Origin: an uncultured Oscillospiraceae bacterium
GTDB taxonomy: Bacteria > Bacillota > Clostridia > Oscillospirales > Oscillospiraceae
NCBI GenBank assembly: GCA_947626345.1
Contig: CANQSF010000012.1
Location: 1-64,000 of the forward strand
Direction of reading: 5' to 3'
DNA: 64,000 bases
Shown: one piece after another, positions 38,025 through 47,515 of the stretch
How positions within the stretch are numbered: position 1 is the stretch's first letter
How the letters are laid out: every line of letters starts with the position of its first letter
Made by a program: the position numbers and the translations under genes
The notes under the pieces: model-generated
Databases searched by the model: none
Told to the model about the DNA's origin: nothing
Seen by the model: only the letters and a program-made list of their open reading frames with translations

Positions 38025-38100
38025 GCTAGTGTAGCTCAGTCGGTAGAGCAGCTGATTCGTAATCAGCAGGTCGCCAGTTCGAGTCTGGCCACTAGCTCCA
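38025..38100 (+). tRNA. tRNA-Thr (anticodon CGT)
   Basis: 76 nt, CCA encoded; acceptor GCTAGTG/CACTAGC, anticodon stem GCTGA/TCAGC with loop TTCGTAA. It stands at the left border of the low-GC island, the classic integration position, although no duplicated 3' end is found downstream. Confidence 0.96.
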
Positions 38101-38145
38101 CCTATGCACGTCAGCACTGGAGGTTGTGCGACGTACAGCCATATG

Positions 38146-38175
38146 AAAAACATCCCCGACAACGGGGGTGTTTTT
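38146..38175. terminator. Bidirectional terminator after tRNA-Thr
   Basis: AAAAACA.CCCC / GGGG.TGTTTTT hairpin with T run on both strands. It can stop the tRNA transcript and any minus-strand transcript of the array at 38267. Confidence 0.8.
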
Positions 38176-38266
38176 CGTTATATGAAGCAGTTTTGCCCTG
38201 CTACAGAGCTTTTGCCGGTGCTCACACTGCACCAATAATCTTGCTGGCAATTCAGGACAGTTTTGC

Positions 38267-38358
38267 AAAATTGGTGCACTGCACCATTTTTGTCACGGCT
38301 TGAACAAATTTGCTACGGCTTGCACCAATTTGTTACGGCTTGGCGAAAAAGTGGTGCA
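38267..38358 (-). repeat. 20-bp tandem repeat array C (reverse orientation)
   Basis: 92 bp. Plus-strand units: TGCACCATTTTTGTCACGGCT-like, TGAACAAATTTGCTACGGCT (38301-38320), TGCACCAATTTGTTACGGCT (38321-38340), flanked by AAAATTGGTGCA (38267-38278) and GTGGTGCA. It is an exact length and layout match to the array at 42969. One stray half unit (TGCACCAATAAT) lies at 38228. Confidence 0.85.
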
Positions 38359-38423
38359 GTGTGAAAGATTATTTGGAAATCCGAGCGTATGAATGATTGA
38401 ATCGCTCTCTGGACGCAGAAAAA

Positions 38424-38444
38424 GAGCCCGCGGATCGCGGGCTC
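38424..38444 (-). terminator. Hairpin upstream of island cassette 1
   Basis: Perfect 9 bp stem GAGCCCGCG/CGCGGGCTC, with TTTTT following on the minus strand. Confidence 0.5.
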
Positions 38445-38448
38445 ATGG

Positions 38449-39048
38449 GTGCTTAGGCGTTTCCTTGTTCGAGGATCACATCATCAGTTTGCGGATGAGG
38501 GCGTACTGCTGGCCCTGTATGGCTACACGCTCATCCCGGTGTGTGAGGCCATGGCGGACCGCAAATCATTCGCGTTCCGGCCAGGGCGGTCTCCCCAGGA
38601 CGCCCAAGCCTATATCCTCAATGCCCTAAAAGGGGCTCACGCCCCGGAGATCATCGTCCGAGGCGATATAAAGGCTTACTATGCCAGCCTCCACCATTCC
38701 TGGCTGCTCGGCAACGCGCCGATGGACAAAAAGGTGCTGAAGGAATTTTTGGATGCTGGCTATGTATACGCAGGGCTGATCTCTGGCTGTGAAGCCTATA
38801 TTCAGAAAGCAAAGCAGGCTCAACTGCCGACCGTCCATTTTGATGAGATCCATGATCTGCAGAGGATGTGGCAAGAGAGCAGTATAGACGGCTTGACATT
38901 CTCAATCGGGATGTATGGCATCAACAGTATGGAGATCACCATCGGCGATGAGGTCAACCAGCGCCATAACGCCATCATCACCGGTGCAGTGGGACAAGGT
39001 AAGAGCAAAAAATTATTGATCAGGGGGAAAAGCCAATGTCTATGGTAA
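38449..39048 (+). pseudogene. Fusion remnant: group II intron RT fragment joined to P-loop ATPase fragment
   Basis: Open for 199 codons but built from two unrelated pieces. Residues ~20-100 look like a group II intron reverse transcriptase (PVCEAMADRKSFAFRPGRSPQDA, GDIKAYYASLHHSWLL, PMDKKVLKEFL) lacking the catalytic YADD part. Residues ~105-195 look like an internal piece of an FtsK/SpoIIIE-like ATPase (FDEIHDLQRMWQ, SMEITIGDEVNQRHNAIITGAVGQGKSKK, with Walker A GAVGQGKS) that stops just after the P-loop. No Shine-Dalgarno precedes GTG 38449. Most likely residue of two deletions, kept in frame by chance. Confidence 0.6.
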
Positions 39049-39293
39049 CAGAACTAATCGCTGCCGTTTCAAATGCTGAACGGCAGATCGATGACCAGAT
39101 CGCAAAATTGAAGAGCTTTCAAGGCGAAATAGATTCTGCCAAGCAAAGAGCAGATGCTGCATTTAGCGGGAGCACGGCGTCATATGGGCAAAGGATGATC
39201 GAGCAGCTTTCGCAAACTAACCAGCAAATCACCGACACGATTGGCAGACTGCAGAACGCAAAAGACAAGCTGATACAAGTGCGTATGGTGTAA
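39036..39293 (+). CDS. Small helical protein, WXG100-like size
   Basis: 85 aa, almost entirely helical and Gln/Lys/Asp-rich (SNAERQIDDQIAKLKSFQGEIDSAKQRADAAF...), suggesting an antiparallel helical hairpin or coiled coil. ATG 39036 has GGGGGA upstream and overlaps the end of the preceding ATPase remnant. Size, fold and FtsK-like neighbour recall type VII secretion (Esx/YukE-like) loci, but there is no WXG motif, so this is only a hypothesis. Confidence 0.65.
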   Translation: MSMVTELIAAVSNAERQIDDQIAKLKSFQGEIDSAKQRADAAFSGSTASYGQRMIEQLSQTNQQITDTIGRLQNAKDKLIQVRMV

Positions 39294-39306
39294 GGGGGGC
39301 CAGAAG

Positions 39307-39471
39307 ATGATTTCTGTTGAAGAACTAATTAGAGAAGTATCCTCACTCAAGATGTCCGCAGAACAGTTGGCGATTTTCATTACTGATGCCCTGAACTGGA
39401 CAGGAATGATCTCGTCAAAAACACAATTTGGGAGGAATAAGAATGGATCGGCTGAGCGGTGCGGAGGATAA
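39307..39471 (+). CDS. Small protein between helical and MBL-Sel1 genes
   Basis: 54 aa: a helical first part (MISVEELIREVSSLKMSAEQLAIFITDALNW, written here only for positions 1-31 in outline: acidic/hydrophobic heptads) and a polar tail. ATG 39307 is preceded by a GGGGGG stretch at good distance and starts 13 nt after the previous gene; its end overlaps the MBL-Sel1 gene by 29 bp. Overlap and spacing support translation in an operon. No homologue recognised. Confidence 0.5.
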   Translation: MISVEELIREVSSLKMSAEQLAIFITDALNWTGMISSKTQFGRNKNGSAERCGG

Positions 39472-41164
39472 GAGTATATACTGCACATATTTGGGTCACA
39501 GCGGTTTTATGATCGAAATGCCAGAGGCAACACTGCTGTTTGACTGGTATCAGGGAGATCTGCCTGATTTGAGAGCCGATAAGCCTCTTTATATTTTTAT
39601 CAGCCATGTTCACGCAGATCATTTCAAACAGGCGGCATTGGAGATTGCCCTTCAGCTTTCCCGAGTCAAGATTTTCCTGGGATATGACAACAGCGTGAAA
39701 GAACTCAATGAGGCTCTGGCTCAGTTCCCGCCGAGGATACGGCAAGCATTGAAGATCGTCGGCGGCGGACAGAGGCTGTCTGCCCTAAATGGGGAGTGGG
39801 TCGTCGAAACGCTAACGTCTACCGATATGGGCGTGGCATATCTTGTGGAGATCGGCGGTAAGACGTTCTTCCATGCGGGTGATCTGTTTCTGATGCAGAC
39901 CATAAGTGAAGCGGACTATATGAAGTGGTATACACAGATGATGGCCGGTCCCCATGCAGGCAAGCATATCGAGACCTACAAGGAACACCTAAAGCACCAG
40001 GAAAAGCGCTTTGCCGAGTTCACAGAACCGCTGCGGAGGAAAACCATCGACTATGGCATGATACCCCTTGACCCGAGGTTCGAAGATATTGGCTACCTCA
40101 CCGTGAAGAGATATATGAAGATCGCTGATTTCAAGGTTTGGTCCCCGATGCACCTTTGGGGAAAGTATGATTTTGTGGACGACTTTATCGAAGCGCATCC
40201 GGAATACGGTGAAAACATGATTGCTTTCACGAAGCGGACCCAGCCGATGAAACGCATCCATGTCGGGGTCAGATTCAGACTGTTCGGGCCCAACGGAGAA
40301 GTGGACAGAGCCAGAACGTCAAACGTGTGCCCCCAGGGTGTATCGGAATTTGAACGCGCCAGTGAAATGTTCAACATAGGGTACTCATATTACGATGGCG
40401 TCGGCGTAAAACGGGATATCGGCAAGGCGATAGAGTGGTTCAAAAAAGCGGCGGAGCTGAACCACCCGCGAGCGATGTTCCTCCTTGGGTCTTTCTATTA
40501 CAACGGAACAGGGATGAACAAAGACAATGACCGGGCGTTTGACTGGTTGACCAAGGCGGCACAGCTTGGGGACGCCAAGGCGATGAACAGGCTCGGCTAC
40601 ATGTATGAGTGCGGCCATGGGACCAGAAAAGACTTTGCAGAAGCTATGAAGTGGTATGAGAAGTCATCGGACAGGGGGAACCCCGACGCCACGTTCAAGA
40701 TCGGACTTTTGTACTACAACGGGAATGGCGTGGCCCGAAACTATGAAGAAGCGATGAAATGGCTCCGGAGGGCAGCGCAGCTTGGCCACTCCGACGCGAT
40801 GCATTGGACTGCATTCATGTATGAGAAGGGATATGGCGCGGATAAGGATCTGGGCAAAGCATTAAAGTGGTATCAGACGGCGGCGTCCTGTGGCAAGGCC
40901 AACTCCATGTTCAGAACCGGGCTGATGTACTATAACGGTGGAAATGGCGTGGAAAAGAACTACGGTAAGGCGCTGGAATGGTTTATGAAATCTGCGGAAA
41001 AGAAATATTCCGACGGAATGAATTGGACAGGCTACATGTATGAAAACGGATTTGGAACAACTAAGGACCTTTCCAGGGCGCTGGCCTGGTATAAGAAAGC
41101 GGCCGCGCTGGAAAATGACAGCGCAAAAAAGAATGTTGAGCGACTTGGGAGCAAAATGAACTGA
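39443..41164 (+). CDS. Metallo-beta-lactamase-fold protein with C-terminal Sel1 repeats
   Basis: 573 aa. Residues 1-270: MBL fold with metal ligands HVHADH (55-60; H55, H57, D59, H60), FFHAGD (about 150-155) and a late His in SPMHLWG (about 235). Residues ~300-565: about seven Sel1/TPR-like repeats of 36 aa (e.g. GYSYYDGVGVKRDIGKAIEW, AMFLLGSFYYNGTGMNKDND), a protein-binding solenoid. ATG 39443 has GGGAGG 7 nt upstream. The combination suggests a hydrolase recruited to a protein partner; substrate unknown. Moderate GC and codon use differ from the flanking core genes. Confidence 0.85.
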   Translation: MDRLSGAEDKSIYCTYLGHSGFMIEMPEATLLFDWYQGDLPDLRADKPLYIFISHVHADHFKQAALEIALQLSRVKIFLGYDNSVKELNEALAQFPPRIRQALKIVGGGQRLSALNGEWVVETLTSTDMGVAYLVEIGGKTFFHAGDLFLMQTISEADYMKWYTQMMAGPHAGKHIETYKEHLKHQEKRFAEFTEPLRRKTIDYGMIPLDPRFEDIGYLTVKRYMKIADFKVWSPMHLWGKYDFVDDFIEAHPEYGENMIAFTKRTQPMKRIHVGVRFRLFGPNGEVDRARTSNVCPQGVSEFERASEMFNIGYSYYDGVGVKRDIGKAIEWFKKAAELNHPRAMFLLGSFYYNGTGMNKDNDRAFDWLTKAAQLGDAKAMNRLGYMYECGHGTRKDFAEAMKWYEKSSDRGNPDATFKIGLLYYNGNGVARNYEEAMKWLRRAAQLGHSDAMHWTAFMYEKGYGADKDLGKALKWYQTAASCGKANSMFRTGLMYYNGGNGVEKNYGKALEWFMKSAEKKYSDGMNWTGYMYENGFGTTKDLSRALAWYKKAAALENDSAKKNVERLGSKMN

Positions 41165-41413
41165 GCAGACCGTATCCCGGATCGCTGAACATGAATTTTA
41201 GCCAGGTGGAGCAACGCTTCATAGATAAGCGGATGCGGTATAACGCGTGTCCTGAAGTGGATGGAAGATATGTCACGCTTTAGGGCTTCTGAAACCCTTG
41301 CGGCGCAACGGGTTCAGATCGTCAAAGTCACAGGGGTAAGGGTAACATACGGCACCCCTCAAAAACCGGGGTTCATTGCGTGACATGCTTCGAAGTTTTT
41401 AAGCAATTCAAAA
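41165..41413. other. Gene-free stretch downstream of the MBL-Sel1 gene
   Basis: Nothing convincing is encoded. A short frame at 41191-41283 (30 codons) lacks context. The GC-rich 41280-41360 part may be the tail of a deleted gene. Confidence 0.35.
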
Positions 41414-41453
41414 CAGGCAGCGGATGGCGTATTTTAGCACCATCCGCTGTCTG
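41414..41453 (-). terminator. Terminator of the truncated FISUMP gene
   Basis: 10 bp stem CAGCGGATGG/CCATCCGCTG extended by CAG/CTG, followed by TTTTG on the minus strand. Confidence 0.65.
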
Positions 41454-41505
41454 CTCTGTCGATTCCAATTCCGTAAGGCAGTTGCCGCTTTTCAATTATT
41501 CGTTG

Positions 41506-42336
41506 TCATACTGTCTTACGAACACTTGCCTGGGTGAGGGTTTTGTTTTGTATCTTTAGGTTGTCGATCATCCAACACTTGCCATCGGCCAGCTTGCGGA
41601 CGCGATACTCGTTGCCATCGCGGGAATCTGTAAGTGTGAGGGTCTGCCCTTCTGTCATGGAGTTTGTGCAGTAATCAGATGTAAAGGTGTCCATTGTCGT
41701 TGGTTCGGGAATTGGTCCGTGAGAGCTGGGGTTAAAGAGTGTGTAGAGGACTTTGCCAGAATAGGTCCCGGATGCTTGGTTTCCGGCAATATACGCCGCA
41801 TAGGTCACGCTGAACCGGTCCAGACTGGTCACTCCCTCGAGAGACTCCCGCTTCACCACTGCGGTCCTCTCCTCCGGCACGGCGGCAAATTTGCCAAAGT
41901 CACCTTGGATCACGAGCCCCTCGGCGGCGTCGTGTATTCTGAACGCCCAGTTGGATTCTTCTCCATTCGTCGCTGTGCCGGTCTTGATGTCGATCCCCTG
42001 GGCCTCTCCGCTGCCGATCATAGCAGTGGTGCCCTCTTCCTCGTTACTATAACCCACCGCATAGACCACATAGCCATCTGGGTCGTTGCAGCCCACAGTA
42101 AAGACCGTGTCCTCGCCTATTTGAGACTGGTAGGTGCCGGGAGTAATCGTAAGCGAATGTTCGTGGGTAGAGGCGCTGAAAGTGCAAGCCGTGCTCACCC
42201 CGACGCCCGCCGTGGCACTGGCGCCATTATCGGCATTGGCAGAACGGTTCATTGTGTCTGTAAGCACAATCACGCTTCCGCTGAATATGGCCAGCATTGC
42301 CACGAATTTGATTATCTTGCCGCTTGCTCTTTTCAT
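41506..42336 (-). CDS. Secreted FISUMP-type protein, C-terminally truncated
   Basis: 276 aa. Signal sequence at 1-37 (basic start, hydrophobic core FVAMLAIFSGSVIVL, cleavage near SANADNG). A beta-rich extracellular domain follows (about 45-215), then the opening of a FISUMP domain (YCTNSMTEGQTLTLTDSRDGNEYRVRKLADGKCWMIDNLKI). The domain normally continues for >100 residues, but here the frame ends after 14 more, so the gene is truncated or 3'-recombined. Start ATG 42336 sits beside GAGGTG; an extended -10 (TGATATAAT, 42397-42402 core) lies ~55 nt upstream. This LADGKCWM style of protein is, in my experience, typical of Saccharibacteria. Confidence 0.75.
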   Translation of the reverse strand: MKRASGKIIKFVAMLAIFSGSVIVLTDTMNRSANADNGASATAGVGVSTACTFSASTHEHSLTITPGTYQSQIGEDTVFTVGCNDPDGYVVYAVGYSNEEEGTTAMIGSGEAQGIDIKTGTATNGEESNWAFRIHDAAEGLVIQGDFGKFAAVPEERTAVVKRESLEGVTSLDRFSVTYAAYIAGNQASGTYSGKVLYTLFNPSSHGPIPEPTTMDTFTSDYCTNSMTEGQTLTLTDSRDGNEYRVRKLADGKCWMIDNLKIQNKTLTQASVRKTV

Positions 42337-42480
42337 CCTCACCTCGATTTGTTGTCCTTATATTAAAGGCATATCACAATATAGCGATACACCCCCATTA
42401 TATCATACTTATTGTTTTTTGGTGTGATTTTTCATAAGCACAATTAATCCAAGAACATCACCGGCGTTTCACCCCAAAAA

Positions 42481-42520
42481 TAAGCGCGGCTGGTTCCTTG
42501 GGGCCAGTCGCGCTTAGGGT
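42481..42520. terminator. Large hairpin between divergent units
   Basis: TAAGCGCGGCTGG/CCAGTCGCGCTTA stem (42481-42493 / 42504-42516) followed by GGGTGCTTCATTTTT. It stands upstream of the truncated FISUMP gene, so it probably ends a plus-strand transcript. Confidence 0.6.
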
Positions 42521-42650
42521 GCTTCATTTTTCTGATCATTCCATCCCTGTTGCACGGCCAATCACTATATTGGTGTAGCCGTGGCGTGGTTTATGGGATT
42601 AATTATGGACGAACCGCAATGCTGGGTATGTTGTTTTTCTAATTCTGTGT

Positions 42651-42900
42651 TACAATATCCATATGGCCCAGTATGAGGCTGGCGGGATTCTGCATTTACA
42701 CGGCAAGCCGCAAAATTGGTGCAGTCCGGACAAAATTGGTGCACCGTGAGTAAAATTGGTGCAGCCGTGTAAAACTGCACGGAAGGTTTTTGCAACCTCC
42801 AAACCTGACGTGCAAAGGCAAGATTTTTTCAGGACATGGCGTGCAAAATATTAACCGCCAAAAATACCGATAAACCCCTGTTAATTGGGGTTTATTTTAT
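42651..42900 (+). ncRNA. Candidate repeat-containing small RNA unit A
   Basis: A promoter-like TACAAT (42651-42656) in a block conserved with unit B is followed by three AAAATTGGTGCA repeats at 42712, 42732 and 42752 (period exactly 20 bp). Then come small hairpins (CCGTG/CACGG; AGGT/ACCT) and an intrinsic terminator TAAACCCC/GGGGTTTA with a T-rich tail (42870-42900). No open frame with a ribosome site fits. The -35 box is weak. Unit B at 46978 has the same order of parts and is alignable over ~190 bp. Confidence 0.55.
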
Positions 42901-42968
42901 TGTTTGCGCAAATTTCCGAATAGTTTTCTCGGCTTTAACGCGTCAAATTTTTGTGTACAGATTCTCCC

Positions 42969-43060
42969 AAAATTGGTGCAGTGCACCAATTTTGTCACGG
43001 CTTATACCAATCTGCTACGGCTTGCACCAATTTGTCACGGCTTGGCAAAAAATTGGTGCA
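42969..43060 (-). repeat. 20-bp tandem repeat array D (reverse orientation)
   Basis: 92 bp. AAAATTGGTGCA-G-TGCACCAATTTT forms a 25 bp perfect palindrome (42969-42993); then units TATACCAATCTGCTACGGCT (43003-43022) and TGCACCAATTTGTCACGGCT (43023-43042), and a final AATTGGTGCA to 43060. Same length as array C. It converges on unit A with the terminator at 42870 between them. Confidence 0.88.
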
Positions 43061-43148
43061 TTGGCCCGGAGATTAGGGTACAGTACAGGTCGTGACCCTT
43101 TCGTGAAAAACTATCTAGGGATTCTGTACAGCATGGTATAATTAGTAT

Positions 43149-43544
43149 GTGAATAGTTCGAAACAGAAAGGTAGGATTGTAATACCCGGTGGTCGCCGGC
43201 CTTGGCCGCACGAACTGCGCATAGCTGATATCTTAGCGATGGCTGGGCACAACATTGAGTTTCTGTCAGAGTCCAATGTCAGCACGGCGGATATATTACT
43301 AGACGGGGTGGAATATGAGCTGAAATCTCCCTTCACCAATAAGCCAGACAAGCTAGAGCGCAATCTCAAGCGAGCCCTCAAGCAGTCCAAAAACATCATC
43401 TTTGACTCCTATAGAGTCAAAAATATGCGCGATGACAGTCTGCGTCGTTTCCTCATTAAAAAAGCTCGAGAACAAAAGCAGATCGGCAAGCTGCTTTTCA
43501 TCACGAAGCACGGCCAAATTATTGACATCACTTCCCTTGTTTGA
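43149..43544 (+). CDS. CdiA C-terminal-type PD-(D/E)XK nuclease
   Basis: 131 aa stand-alone protein resembling the tRNA-nuclease domain at the C-terminus of contact-dependent inhibition toxins. Restriction-like core: D48 (TADILLDG), E57-L-K59 (VEYELKSP), then the helix KLERNLKRALKQSKNIIFDS and a final strand KLLFITKHGQIIDI. GTG 43149 lies ~7 nt after a TATAAT (43137-43142), so the message could be leaderless; no ribosome site is seen. No immunity gene is adjacent, and no secretion signal exists, so a toxin role is uncertain; repair or recombination use is an alternative. Confidence 0.75.
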   Translation: MNSSKQKGRIVIPGGRRPWPHELRIADILAMAGHNIEFLSESNVSTADILLDGVEYELKSPFTNKPDKLERNLKRALKQSKNIIFDSYRVKNMRDDSLRRFLIKKAREQKQIGKLLFITKHGQIIDITSLV

Positions 43545-43550
43545 TATAAT
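43522..43550 (+). promoter_or_regulatory. Consensus promoter at the end of the nuclease gene
   Basis: TTGACA (43522-43527), 17 nt spacer, TATAAT (43545-43550): perfect hexamers. Predicted +1 coincides with the first bases of the 50-bp repeat E1. Confidence 0.8.
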
Positions 43551-43559
43551 GTAAATATC

Positions 43560-43609
43560 GAAGTCCTTGCACGGGGCAGTATGCTCCTACCGCAGGGGCT
43601 TCTTTATTG
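43560..43609 (+). repeat. 50-bp hairpin repeat E1
   Basis: Identical over 50 bp to 46747-46796. Outer stem GAAGTCCTTGC / GCAGGGGCTTC pairs at all 11 positions with G.U allowed; inner stem GGGGCA/TGCTCC; then TTTATTG. With the consensus promoter ending 9 nt before it, it may be a ~50-nt transcript or a transcription-start-proximal attenuator. Confidence 0.8.
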
Positions 43610-43918
43610 TCCGGCCAAAATAAAGACGCCACAGAACAATTTACTATAATATATATGCTATATTCATATGCGGTGCGCACCGAAGGGAGAGATACTTGGG
43701 GCGGAACCTGCTTTTTCATAGGCAAGCCATAGTCTCAATAAGCAAGATGATAGCACGAAAAAACCTTGGCGGGAACGAATCCAGACCAAGGCGCTGTACT
43801 TTAATGATATACCAAGTTATCCTAAACGTCAATGGTGATCATGGCGGCGGCATAGTAACACTTTTATTAGACAACGAGTGGATTTGGGTAAAATTTTTAA
43901 TTATCTAATGCGCACTTA
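43610..43918. other. AT-rich stretch between E1 and FISUMP promoter
   Basis: Contains an isolated TATAAT (43645-43650) and a 70-codon frame starting with TTG 43696 that has a GGGAGAG site but no recognisable protein features. No confident gene. Confidence 0.35.
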
Positions 43919-43947
43919 TTGTGCAAATAATATTTCTGTGATATGAT
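43919..43947 (+). promoter_or_regulatory. Promoter of the large FISUMP gene
   Basis: TTGTGC (43919-43924), 17 nt spacer, TATGAT (43942-43947). The predicted +1 (~43954) is the first base of the inverted repeat below. Confidence 0.65.
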
Positions 43948-43953
43948 GGAAAT

Positions 43954-44110
43954 GCAAAACACAATTATCTGCGGTAAACGAGCACTTTTCTGGCTTTGAT
44001 CATGATGGAACATAAAAATGGCACCACAAGGCCACCTTTACGTATGTTCGATCATGATTGTTCGTATGTAGGTAATTGTGTTTTGCATCCTTGCGGTGCC
44101 ATTTTTGTTA
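43954..44110 (+). promoter_or_regulatory. Structured leader with interlocked inverted repeats and terminator
   Basis: IR1: GCAAAACACAATTA (43954-43967) pairs perfectly with 44073-44086. IR2: AAAAATGGCACC-a-CAAGG (44014-44031) pairs with CCTTG-c-GGTGCCATTTTT (44089-44106). Their arms interleave, so they form a pseudoknot or exclude each other. IR2 ends in TTTTTG like a terminator. A third pair GAACATA/TATGTTC (44007-44013 / 44043-44049) sits inside. Reads like an attenuator or riboswitch-type leader; class unknown. Confidence 0.6.
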
Positions 44111-44183
44111 TGGGAGGTGAGAAAGCAAATACGGCCTGCGAGTAAATAAAATTAAGAGAAGTTACAAGAGAGGTACGCTAGGC

Positions 44184-46640
44184 ATGGCTGTAATATATGC
44201 GTTATTAAAGGTATATTATTATAATGTTCTCGGTCTTTTTGACCGCTTAATTTATATTGATCATAAAAGTAATAGGCGCTATTTCTGTGCCAATGGCTCA
44301 TTTTTACTTCTCCCATTGGCACGGAAATGGCGCTTATTTGCGACCGCCTGTACAAGTTTATTAATTTGTATTTGTGTCACGCACACGGCGGCCGCAGCGT
44401 CATTAACGATTAGCATTCCAAATACCCTCTCGCTGGATGTTACCCCAAGCGCAGCAGGAACCTTCGTAGAATCCGAGGAGGCTAAGATATCTATCATTGG
44501 TGCGGATTTCGGGTACACCTTAAGCATTGCCTCTCAAGACGGCAAGACTAATGATCTCATCGGGGAGCACGGCACACTTCCGTCTATTAAAACTCAATAT
44601 ACCGGCGCGCAGGGAGAAAGCGGCGCCTGGCCCGTTAACACCTGGGGCTATAAACCGGATAAGCTCAACGGTTCACTTAATGAGGCTTATCTACCGGGCC
44701 CCACGGACGGAGATGTCATAGAGCAACTGCCTACAGCACTTGGCGCCAATCACGAACATACCATCAAAATTGCCGCCAAAGTAGACAATACCATTGCTGC
44801 CGGGACTTACTCCAATACATTTGTGCTTACTGTCACTGCCAATAAAGTAGAATATACTATTAACTATGATGCCAACGGCGGAACGGGCGGCCCCACTGTT
44901 CAAACCGGGCAAAGTGAGAATATGAATGTTAAGCTTACCTATGAAGAGCCCGGTAGCCAAACGATGGCCTTTGAAGGTTGGTGCACCAAACCAACAAACG
45001 ATGCAACTTGTAATGGCGAGCGATATTATCCGGGTGATGATTATACATTAAATGTAGATAAAAACAATGTAACTTTATATGCTATATGGGATCAACCGGA
45101 AGCAATGCAAAACTGGTATGGCTGCAAAGATTTGGAAAAGAACCGACAAATCTCGCTGATTGATACGCGTGACAACAGGCTTTATTATGTGGCCAAGCTT
45201 GCAGACGGTAATTGTTGGATGACGGAGAACTTGGACCTATTTCTTGACCCTAATAAACCACTAACGCCGGAAGACAGTGACGTGGAAGAAGAGTGGACAC
45301 CACCGGCCACACATAAGACCGGCGACTCTGATTGGATGGGCGATAAAGTCACCGGCAATAGTACAGCAAACACGGAAAATGGCGAGAATTTACCGCAATC
45401 CTACGATCCAGGCAATCAGTGCTGGAATAACGAAAATGGTAGCTCTTACTCCGAAGATTGCCCTGCCCATGACGAGTCACATTTTCACGTGGGCAACTTC
45501 TATAATTATGCGGCCGCGGTGGCTCAGAGCGATGCGAAGGACCACGCAAATGGTGGCCAAACCTATAACACATCAATCTGTCCTTCCGGATGGCAATTAC
45601 CAACTTATATAGGCCGTAAATCCTTTATTGAGCTAAAAGAAAATACCGACACTGACCCGAACAGCCCAAATTGGGTCACCGGACCGGTTGCGAGTAGCAC
45701 AATTGACAAGGAACCTTATTTCTTCTCATACAGCGGTTGGTGGCGCGGTCATTTAGTTCAGTCTAATTCGGTTAGCGTTTGGTGGACCAATGCCGTAGTC
45801 AGCAGTACGCATGCGTATTCATTGTACATTAACACTGGCAATGCTCTGTATCTTCAAAATACCGGCACGTATCGTCTCGATGGATTTTATGTTCGCTGCG
45901 TCGCACGCGACCCATCTATGCAGGATGTGGCGGAATGGGGTGACACTATTGAGGAAGGCGAGACTGTTACGGCAATAGATGAACGAGACGGAAAAACTTA
46001 TACCGTCGCTCGGCTTGCAGATGGCAATTTGTGGATGACACAGAACCTTGCTATAGGCAGCAATGAAGAGCCGACTGTGCTTACTTATGAAAAAACTGAT
46101 CTAGACCAAGGCGTACAAATAGATGGCGAAGAGGAAGCGGGCACATTTACTCTTCCACAAGGGAGCTCAAAGTTGGCCGAAACCCCGGACGATCACGCCG
46201 GATGGCATTTCCAGCAATATAACACCAAACACATTTATATAAACGAAGATAAAGCAGAATATGGCGGTTATTACAGCTGGTTTACAGCCACATTGGGCGA
46301 AGGCACAAAAGAAATGATCTCCGGCGAAACATCATATTCTATATGCCCCAAAGGCTGGAGATTGCCAAAATTCACCGAATTCCGAAATCTCATCGCGGTG
46401 TCATCGGGCAAAATGGCTGAGCCCCCTGCTAATTTTGGAGTCTTCGCCGGCAGATGTGTAGAAAGTGGCTGTCCGAATGCGAATATGGGAAATGCCGGTT
46501 ATTGGTGGACTTCCACGGCAGCCCCAAATCCATCATATCTTGACTATGCCGGAGATATGCACGGATATAACACCGGGGAATTTGGTGCCGGCTCAATATA
46601 TAAGGGTGGCGGCAGTAGCATCCGTTGCATAGCACGCTAG
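44184..46640 (+). CDS. Large secreted FISUMP/InlB-B-repeat protein
   Basis: 818 aa extracellular protein. Hydrophobic signal RKWRLFATACTSLLICICVTHTAAA (about 47-71, so an unusually long N-terminal extension if ATG 44184 is used); domain of serine/threonine-rich beta type SLTISIPNTLSLDVTPS... (about 73-230); one Listeria-Bacteroides (InlB B) repeat with YDANGGTGG...FEGWCTKP...YAIWD (about 232-306); FISUMP domain 1 (from about 310; DTRDNRLYYVAKLADGNCWMTENLDL, ending SWWT-like around 560); FISUMP domain 2 (about 575-818; DERDGKTYTVARLADGNLWMTQNLAI to SSIRCIAR). No anchor motif. An in-frame TTG at 44316 inside a hairpin is an alternative start. Composition is far lower GC than the flanks; resembles Saccharibacteria surface proteins. 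Confidence 0.85.
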   Translation: MAVIYALLKVYYYNVLGLFDRLIYIDHKSNRRYFCANGSFLLLPLARKWRLFATACTSLLICICVTHTAAAASLTISIPNTLSLDVTPSAAGTFVESEEAKISIIGADFGYTLSIASQDGKTNDLIGEHGTLPSIKTQYTGAQGESGAWPVNTWGYKPDKLNGSLNEAYLPGPTDGDVIEQLPTALGANHEHTIKIAAKVDNTIAAGTYSNTFVLTVTANKVEYTINYDANGGTGGPTVQTGQSENMNVKLTYEEPGSQTMAFEGWCTKPTNDATCNGERYYPGDDYTLNVDKNNVTLYAIWDQPEAMQNWYGCKDLEKNRQISLIDTRDNRLYYVAKLADGNCWMTENLDLFLDPNKPLTPEDSDVEEEWTPPATHKTGDSDWMGDKVTGNSTANTENGENLPQSYDPGNQCWNNENGSSYSEDCPAHDESHFHVGNFYNYAAAVAQSDAKDHANGGQTYNTSICPSGWQLPTYIGRKSFIELKENTDTDPNSPNWVTGPVASSTIDKEPYFFSYSGWWRGHLVQSNSVSVWWTNAVVSSTHAYSLYINTGNALYLQNTGTYRLDGFYVRCVARDPSMQDVAEWGDTIEEGETVTAIDERDGKTYTVARLADGNLWMTQNLAIGSNEEPTVLTYEKTDLDQGVQIDGEEEAGTFTLPQGSSKLAETPDDHAGWHFQQYNTKHIYINEDKAEYGGYYSWFTATLGEGTKEMISGETSYSICPKGWRLPKFTEFRNLIAVSSGKMAEPPANFGVFAGRCVESGCPNANMGNAGYWWTSTAAPNPSYLDYAGDMHGYNTGEFGAGSIYKGGGSSIRCIAR
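44271..44338 (+). repeat. 26-bp inverted repeat / RNA hairpin at the FISUMP start
   Basis: Arms 44271-44296 and 44313-44338, loop 16 nt. 23 of 26 positions are Watson-Crick and the other three become G.U pairs in RNA, so the RNA stem is unbroken. It lies within the predicted N-terminal coding part. Confidence 0.75.
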
Positions 46641-46746
46641 AGCCAGGGATTACTCGTTTCCCTTCCCAATGCCGTGCGGGCTCTGCCCGGACATCCCGCA
46701 CGGCATCACAGGTTCTTCTTATTGTGTATTATATAACACACTCATT

Positions 46747-46796
46747 GAAGTCCTTGCACGGGGCAGTATGCTCCTACCGCAGGGGCTTCTTTATTG
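46747..46796 (+). repeat. 50-bp hairpin repeat E2
   Basis: Perfect copy of 43560-43609, here ~107 nt after the FISUMP stop. The upstream -10-like sequence is TATAAC (46732-46737) without a clear -35 box. The two copies bracket a 3.1 kb segment holding the FISUMP gene. Confidence 0.8.
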
Positions 46797-46977
46797 CATC
46801 TATTGTGGAGGAACTACGGCGCGTTGCACCCATAGCTCGGGAATTTGAGTAATCTGCCGGTTGGGCATTGACTCATAAACCGATCTGTCCGTATTCTGCA
46901 CCTTACATTACCAAACAGTGCCCTACTTTTTGCTCCTACAGCAAAAAGTAGGTATGGTGTCTTTTTTAATTCCGTGA
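46797..46977. other. Gene-free spacer with terminator-like hairpin
   Basis: No coding sequence. A perfect 12 bp stem CCTACTTTTTGC/GCAAAAAGTAGG lies at 46922-46952 and is followed by TATGGTGTCTTTTTT, consistent with termination of an upstream transcript. Confidence 0.5.
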
Positions 46978-47225
46978 TACAATACCTATAAGGCCAGCAC
47001 AAGGCCGGTGGAATTCTGTATTTACACGGAAAACCACAAAATTGGTGCAATTTGCAGAAATTGAGCCAAAGGCGGAAAAATTGGTGCAGTTTGCAAAAAT
47101 TGGTGCACCGTGAGCAAAATTGGTGCAGCCGTGTAAAACTGCACGGAAGGTTTTTGCAACCTCCAAACCTGACGTGCAAGGGCATAAAGAGAGCACCAGT
47201 CCGCAGACTGGTGCTTTCTTTTTGC
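46978..47225 (+). ncRNA. Candidate repeat-containing small RNA unit B
   Basis: TACAAT (46978-46983) begins the unit. AAAATTGGTGCA occurs at 47038, 47077, 47096 and 47116, with a degenerate copy at 47057: spacing 19-20-19-20 bp. The tail GCCGTGTAAAACTGCACGG... is shared with unit A, and a strong terminator AGCACCAGTC/GACTGGTGCT followed by TTCTTTTT closes it (47192-47223). Alignable with unit A from the -10 box to ~47180. No frame with a ribosome site. Confidence 0.6.
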
Positions 47226-47315: not shown

Positions 47316-47515
47316 GTTTTTCAGAGAGGAGGGCGCCAAAGAGGGGCCGAAAAAACTTTTTTTCAAAAATTTTGAAAAAATGTGAGCCGTTTTGCCCTCT
47401 TCCGCCGTCTTATTATTAAAGGCCGGTACTGTCGGCATGGCAAAAGACCGGCCAAGATCCATCAGCCTGCAACAAAGACCCGCCCCCATACGGGGGGCCT
47501 GAAAGGAGAAACTTT

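Follow-up and report, generated by a model that had tools for sequence, protein, structure and literature searches.

Large serine recombinases rank among the leading tools for the insertion of large DNA, on the view that two short sites are all they require. Staphylococcal cassette chromosome (SCC) elements have two of them, CcrA/CcrB: an indispensable gene receives the insertion at its 3' end and is kept functional, the elements accrete in tandem, and some cassettes carry no recombinase. Large serine integrases are described as requiring neither accessory proteins nor auxiliary DNA, and the attP of Listeria A118 is a pseudo-palindrome of ~50 bp, with 25-bp half-sites on either side of a central dinucleotide (PMC3783163). 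In streptococcal ICEs, triplets of adjacent serine integrases are found near one end, the junction repeats are 2–8 bp long, and the protein genes mutT, traG and hsdM are disrupted by insertion (PMC4701971). Integration of serine recombinase elements at tRNA genes is described as rare, examples being the mycobacterial AICEs (tRNA-Leu) and phage phiRSM1 (tRNA-Ser) (PMC3218068).

The locus considered here lies in a 64,000-nucleotide window (the whole stretch of DNA that was analysed) from an uncultured Oscillospiraceae bacterium of the gut. A sequence-only reading had described two gene cassettes enclosed by paired arrays of repeats, and suggested a new mobile cassette or a recombination or partition site system. 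The core of this idea, mobile cassettes that belong to a recombination-site system, holds; the partition alternative has gained no support. The region is probably a tandem pair of integrative elements without a recombinase, from a family that inserts immediately behind tRNA genes, in which other members carry paired recombinases and the arrays would flank attP (Table 1).

Table 1. Features of the two elements and their surroundings (positions in the window)
Feature	Position	Strand	Details
tRNA-Thr(CGT)	38025..38100	+	ARAGORN, Rfam tRNA; terminal CCA is the insertion point
Element 1, recombinase-less cassette, 4720 bp	38101..42820	+	Empty sites; tip dyad 22/28; ends with CA 42819-42820
Element 1, tRNA-side terminal half-site	38101..38126	+	Inverted copy at 42793-42818 and 47157-47178
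Element 1, terminator-like hairpin behind tRNA-side tip	38146..38177	+	Read from sequence
Array C	38267..38358	mixed (.)	Units: forward, reverse, reverse (degenerate), reverse, forward
Element 1 cargo, ORF with weak RVT_1 similarity (remnant)	38449..39048	+	PF00078 E=0.095, below cut-off
Element 1 cargo, metallo-beta-lactamase fold + Sel1 repeats	39428..41164	+	PF13483 1.5e-7, PF08238 8.4e-71
Element 1 cargo, truncated FISUMP-like protein	41506..42342	-	Inverted DNA similarity (repeat I1) to element 2 FISUMP gene
Array A	42712..42763	+	Three forward units, 20-bp spacing
Element 1, distal terminal half-site	42793..42818	-	Sequence comparison
Element 2, recombinase-less cassette, 4364 bp	42821..47184	+	Architecture as element 1; ends with CA 47183-47184
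Element 2, tRNA-side tip, degenerate half-site	42821..42846	+	6/28 ungapped identity to partner
Element 2, terminator-like hairpin	42871..42900	+	Read from sequence
Array D	42969..43060	mixed (.)	Near copy of C (90%), same unit order as C
Second repeat type AGGGTACAGT, single unit adjoining D	43073..43083	+	Sequence
Element 2 cargo, CdiA-C-like nuclease domain protein	43149..43544	+	PF18451 E=1.4e-9
Element 2 cargo, large FISUMP (Fib_succ_major) surface protein	44184..46640	+	PF09603 E=5.1e-10
Array B	47038..47127	+	Four forward units + one degenerate
Element 2, distal terminal half-site	47157..47182	-	Sequence comparison
Displaced host terminator of tRNA-Thr	47185..47225	+	Aligns with DNA directly after tRNA in G319

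Sequence comparison with relatives establishes that an insertion took place, fixes its left border to a single base and reveals the empty site. The DNA upstream of the island is matched in all 35 genomes of the genus, and five relatives align to the window up to exactly 38100. In G319, AAAAGAGCGCCGGTCCGCGGACCGGCGCTC directly follows the tRNA and matches TAAAGAGAGCACCAGTCCGCAGACTGGTGC of the window, which starts at 47185; in G321 and G320, homology restarts at 47494-47500, with the same downstream gene. Thus 38101-47184 has been inserted between the tRNA and its terminator, and G319, G320 and G321, all of the same genus, have the empty site. The tRNA-Thr gene was left whole. The GC content of the island is ~0.41-0.52, against ~0.66 in its flanks. 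The true borders are each marked by CA (38099-38100, 42819-42820 and 47183-47184), and we infer the first of these to be the crossover dinucleotide. Only 2-3 bp are common to the junctions, where there is no 4-8-bp target duplication and nothing beyond CA is duplicated. The arrays, which had been taken to delimit the cassettes, lie 56-166 bp inside these borders; the sequence-only reading had overlooked the CA core, the half-sites at the tips and the tRNA. Insertion by a serine recombinase at the CCA end is very probable.

The two tips of element 1, each read from CA towards the interior, are CCTATGCACGTCAGCACTGGAGGTTG and CCTTTGCACGTCAGGTTTGGAGGTTG. They agree at 22 of 28 positions, a score not equalled in 200,000 pairs drawn at random from the island, and when the ends are joined at CA they form a pseudo-palindrome of ~54 bp. 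The junctions have this short core in common and the ends are pseudo-palindromic and attP-like, with one degenerate half-site in element 2 (its tRNA-side tip; the hairpin and array D behind it are typical). Each element starts with the tRNA-side tip, followed by a terminator-like hairpin and array C or D, and arrays A and B precede the distal tips. The hairpin of element 1 has equivalents in G294, G251, G237, G275, G143 and G717. The junction palindrome appears better explained by attP half-sites than by an integron attC. The earlier statement that no known attachment site explains the arrays is thus right only in part, since the ends lie at the 3' end of a tRNA and resemble the att sites of a known class of enzymes, the large serine recombinases. 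Element 2 presumably arrived first, and element 1 later, at the regenerated tRNA junction.

All four arrays were where the sequence-only reading had placed them, far above chance, and are built from a conserved 12-mer, AAAATTGGTGCA, at a spacing of ~20 bp. (The 20-bp unit originally quoted matches once in C and once in D.) The 9.1-kb island contains 15 copies with at most one mismatch, compared with 0.125 on average, and never more than 1, in 200 first-order Markov randomisations, and a search of the rest of the 2.59-Mb genome found only four copies, all single. Arrays C and D are near copies of each other (90% identical across 96 bp), but their orientation is mixed, not simply reverse, as had been thought. 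Arrays A and B are indeed forward; of the ~190 bp of flank that they were said to share, 89 bp of outer flank are 98% identical, and the upstream flank, although also common to both, is more diverged. The earlier exclusion of a CRISPR stands: these are 12-bp units with gaps of ~8 bp and mixed orientation, whereas a CRISPR would have repeats of ~23-50 bp, unique spacers about as long, and neighbouring cas genes. Across elements, arrays range from two to six or more units. A second repeat, GGGGTACAGT, forms runs adjoining AAAATTGGTGCA units in four islands (L009 6995-7140, L016 6380-6440, L073 17942-17983 and L153 10546-10625). Its units stand beside arrays in G717, G275, L009 and L016, and a search for GGGGTACAGT pairs in 300 family genomes matched the G275 island and no other.

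Related islands with the same layout and unit are found behind tRNA-Glu, -Pro, -Leu and -Ser and the same tRNA-Thr, and these carry paired adjacent recombinase genes, rec1 and rec2. Both products have the domains of large serine recombinases (Resolvase, Recombinase and Zn ribbon). At E<=1e-170, rec1 is present in six elements among 300 family genomes, and G717 (the genome of L009) supplies a seventh; the pair occurs in all seven, with rec2 fragmentary in G717 and G251. Five of the seven rec1-bearing relatives adjoin a tRNA, the islands of G143 and G011 having none beside the array. Units lie between rec1 and the terminal tip in six of the seven, and at the island ends in G275. By comparison, 199 kb of other family loci contained three single units.

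Two of these islands, in G294 (of the same genus as the window) and G275, were found with the FISUMP protein as bait, and both have arrays at the two ends. Behind tRNA-Glu, the 10.8-kb G294 element has first a tip, a hairpin and units; a pair of overlapping recombinase genes follows, then FISUMP and further genes, and at the far end units again and the inverted tip. The G275 island extends for 32 kb behind tRNA-Leu. Their equal-armed, CA-centred dyads match at 20/24 (G294) and 21/24 (G275) positions, where for each far end two neighbouring CA positions were possible and the one chosen makes the arms agree. The half-sites vary between elements and agree within each. In G717, a rec1-bearing element (with one in-frame stop) occupies the same tRNA-Thr(CGT) as in the window; its tip, CGTTTCCACGTCAGATTTGGAG, matches, and its array follows the layout of C and D. 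The same genome has a second array locus, L009, beside tRNA-Ser, with no recombinase in the 0.9 kb of island examined.

Some occurrences of the unit were set aside. Two units at 20-bp spacing occupy the same intergenic spot of two Lachnospiraceae-type genomes (L010 5178-5209 and L015 2444-2475), outside any island seen. These loci and L011-L014 were left out, as the parts of them that were viewed showed units with neither the tRNA nor the tip architecture. Viral contigs that matched the two-unit pattern were left out as well; in L019, the one examined, the units sit inside a coding frame.

In a tree of 40 recombinases, the array-bearing sequences form one clade of eight rows (support 100/100) on a long stem, and arrays are absent from all 32 other rows. 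The eighth row of the clade is a viral-contig copy identical to G237 that lacks downstream DNA. An automatic label (at least one unit with at most one mismatch within 1.6 kb) did not yield one group, and array presence was judged per locus instead, a decision taken after the result of the automatic label. The exceptions to the label were G251, whose units have two mismatches; G275, where the array is farther off; L118, without downstream DNA; and L108, with one stray unit. Judged in this way, comparison links the AAAATTGGTGCA unit exclusively to one recombinase clade. No rec1 was found at E<=1e-150 in a class-wide sample of 391 genomes, so the clade seems restricted to the family at that sampling. 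AAAATTGGTGCANTGCACCA had no match in viral contigs, and plasmids gave only recombinases less than 60% identical.

A linked recombinase is thus present in relatives but absent from the window genome. The ORFs of the window elements encode none, whereas a recombinase with Resolvase and Recombinase domains (plus Zn ribbon) accompanies the same ends in seven relatives. The best match in the window genome, a draft in 92 contigs, has 30% identity and is no orthologue; with the assembly in that state, a helper recombinase could be missing from it. With neither a recombinase of their own nor an orthologue in the genome, the window elements appear to be helper-dependent, and the match of tip and array to G717 suggests that they are best read as recombinase-less elements with G717-type ends. 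We have filed them as recombinase-less relatives of the rec1-bearing elements, and lean towards the view that they move in trans.

How might such an element insert? The circular form would carry the ~54-bp pseudo-palindromic attP centred on CA, which rec1 and rec2 would exchange at the CA of the terminal CCA of the tRNA; that these two proteins catalyse the exchange is presumed from the comparisons above. The tRNA would remain intact, its own terminator being pushed to the far end while the incoming tip brings a replacement. The AAAATTGGTGCA arrays would then be protein-binding sites on either side of attP that help to assemble or control the recombination complex. That the arrays are accessory sites of this complex is a tentative proposal, to which we give somewhat less than an even chance. 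The same caution applies to the fullest version of the model, a paired-recombinase family that uses the CCA end of many tRNAs, has an attP flanked by arm-like accessory arrays, and may be used in trans by small recombinase-less cassettes piling up behind tRNAs.

What else could the arrays be? The main rival keeps the islands as described but gives the arrays another role: in the circular form they may be iterons or the origin of its transfer, or they may be operators where a regulator controls the genes of the element. We regard this as having close to an even chance. The direct ~20-bp spacing and the mixed orientation fit iterons or operators as well, and two repeat types co-occur in several islands. 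However, in the window, G294 and G275 both ends have arrays close to the att tips, the ORFs that were read in the window elements and in G294 include no replication gene, and the presence of only four single units elsewhere in the host genome argues against a host regulator. Tyrosine integrases typically target tRNA 3' ends and have arm-type sites away from the core, so that both the location and the repeated sites could point to such an enzyme, but this is quite improbable: reading the ORFs of the window elements, G294 and G275 turned up no tyrosine integrase, the latter two having serine recombinases instead, and only CA is repeated at the junctions (2-3 bp in common), where tyrosine integrases usually leave longer repeats. 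Least probable, and largely refuted, is the idea that the arrays form the ends of an IS21- or Tn7-like DDE transposon and are bound by its transposase. Such elements do have several ~20-bp sites at each end and in some Tn7-like cases insert beside tRNA genes, but no transposase was recognised in the window elements, no 4-8-bp target duplication flanks them, the unit tracks a serine recombinase clade, and the IS21 transposase loci of 120 family genomes lack it (IS21-like ends were the first hypothesis, dropped on this result).

Among the cargo genes, Pfam gave no match of its own for the truncated FISUMP-like protein of element 1, and homologues of the element 2 FISUMP protein are present in the G294 and G275 islands. 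The element 1 ORF at 38449-39048, in which a stretch with weak similarity to reverse transcriptases is followed or preceded by a P-loop-like motif (GAVGQGKS), resembles a fused gene remnant. A 72-bp direct repeat (88%) with a terminator-like inverted repeat lies on either side of the FISUMP gene (43538-43609 and 46725-46796). The DNA just 5' of the FISUMP start is near-identical in the window (44110-44190) and G294 (L071 11600-11700), while the proteins are 50% identical. Further upstream there may be a structured leader (43952-44110), also seen in G294, at two G275 genes and in L016, in which the first ~20 nt past a TATAAT-like box pair with the segment directly 5' of a constant terminator-like hairpin (GGCACCACAAGG/CCTTGCGGTGCC-TTTTT), giving the order a-b-a'-b'. 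The a/a' arms differ per element, and each arm finds its match in its own partner alone (paired runs are 14-16 bp long, against 4-7 crosswise). Rfam had no match in this region at gathering thresholds.

If the proposed family is real, a paired clade that is linked to many tRNA types with a CA-of-CCA core, and has arrays by the inferred attP, would provide new targeting rules and allow a test of whether accessory sites can control large serine recombinases. It would also account in a simple way for the tRNA genes of gut Firmicutes behind which cargo such as FISUMP, nuclease and MBL-Sel1 genes is stacked. The open-access papers searched contain no account of a recombinase pair that targets tRNA-CCA ends and has arrays, subscription papers being largely outside the search.

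Among the described systems, SCC is the closest working analogy, sharing with the present family the recombinase pair, insertion at a gene end with function kept, tandem accretion and recombinase-less cassettes. The target of SCC, however, is rlmH and that of the family the CCA end of tRNA genes, and the family has a different recombinase clade and arrays beside its att tips; the window elements, behind tRNA-Thr, are not ccr-driven insertions in rlmH. Streptococcal ICEs are alike in having adjacent serine integrase genes near one end and very short junction repeats, but there the genes come in triplets and protein genes are disrupted, whereas the family has a gene pair and leaves the tRNA end intact. 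AICEs and phiRSM1 likewise combine a serine recombinase with a tRNA target; unlike them, the family covers several tRNA types within one recombinase clade and has paired recombinases and arrays. The A118-type integrases are similar in domain content and in their pseudo-palindromic attP of ~50 bp with a central dinucleotide. A regulated nucleoprotein architecture of the kind that such arrays would imply is undescribed for these enzymes. Since large serine integrases are described as doing without auxiliary DNA, what surprises most is that in this family arrays consistently accompany the inferred att tips.
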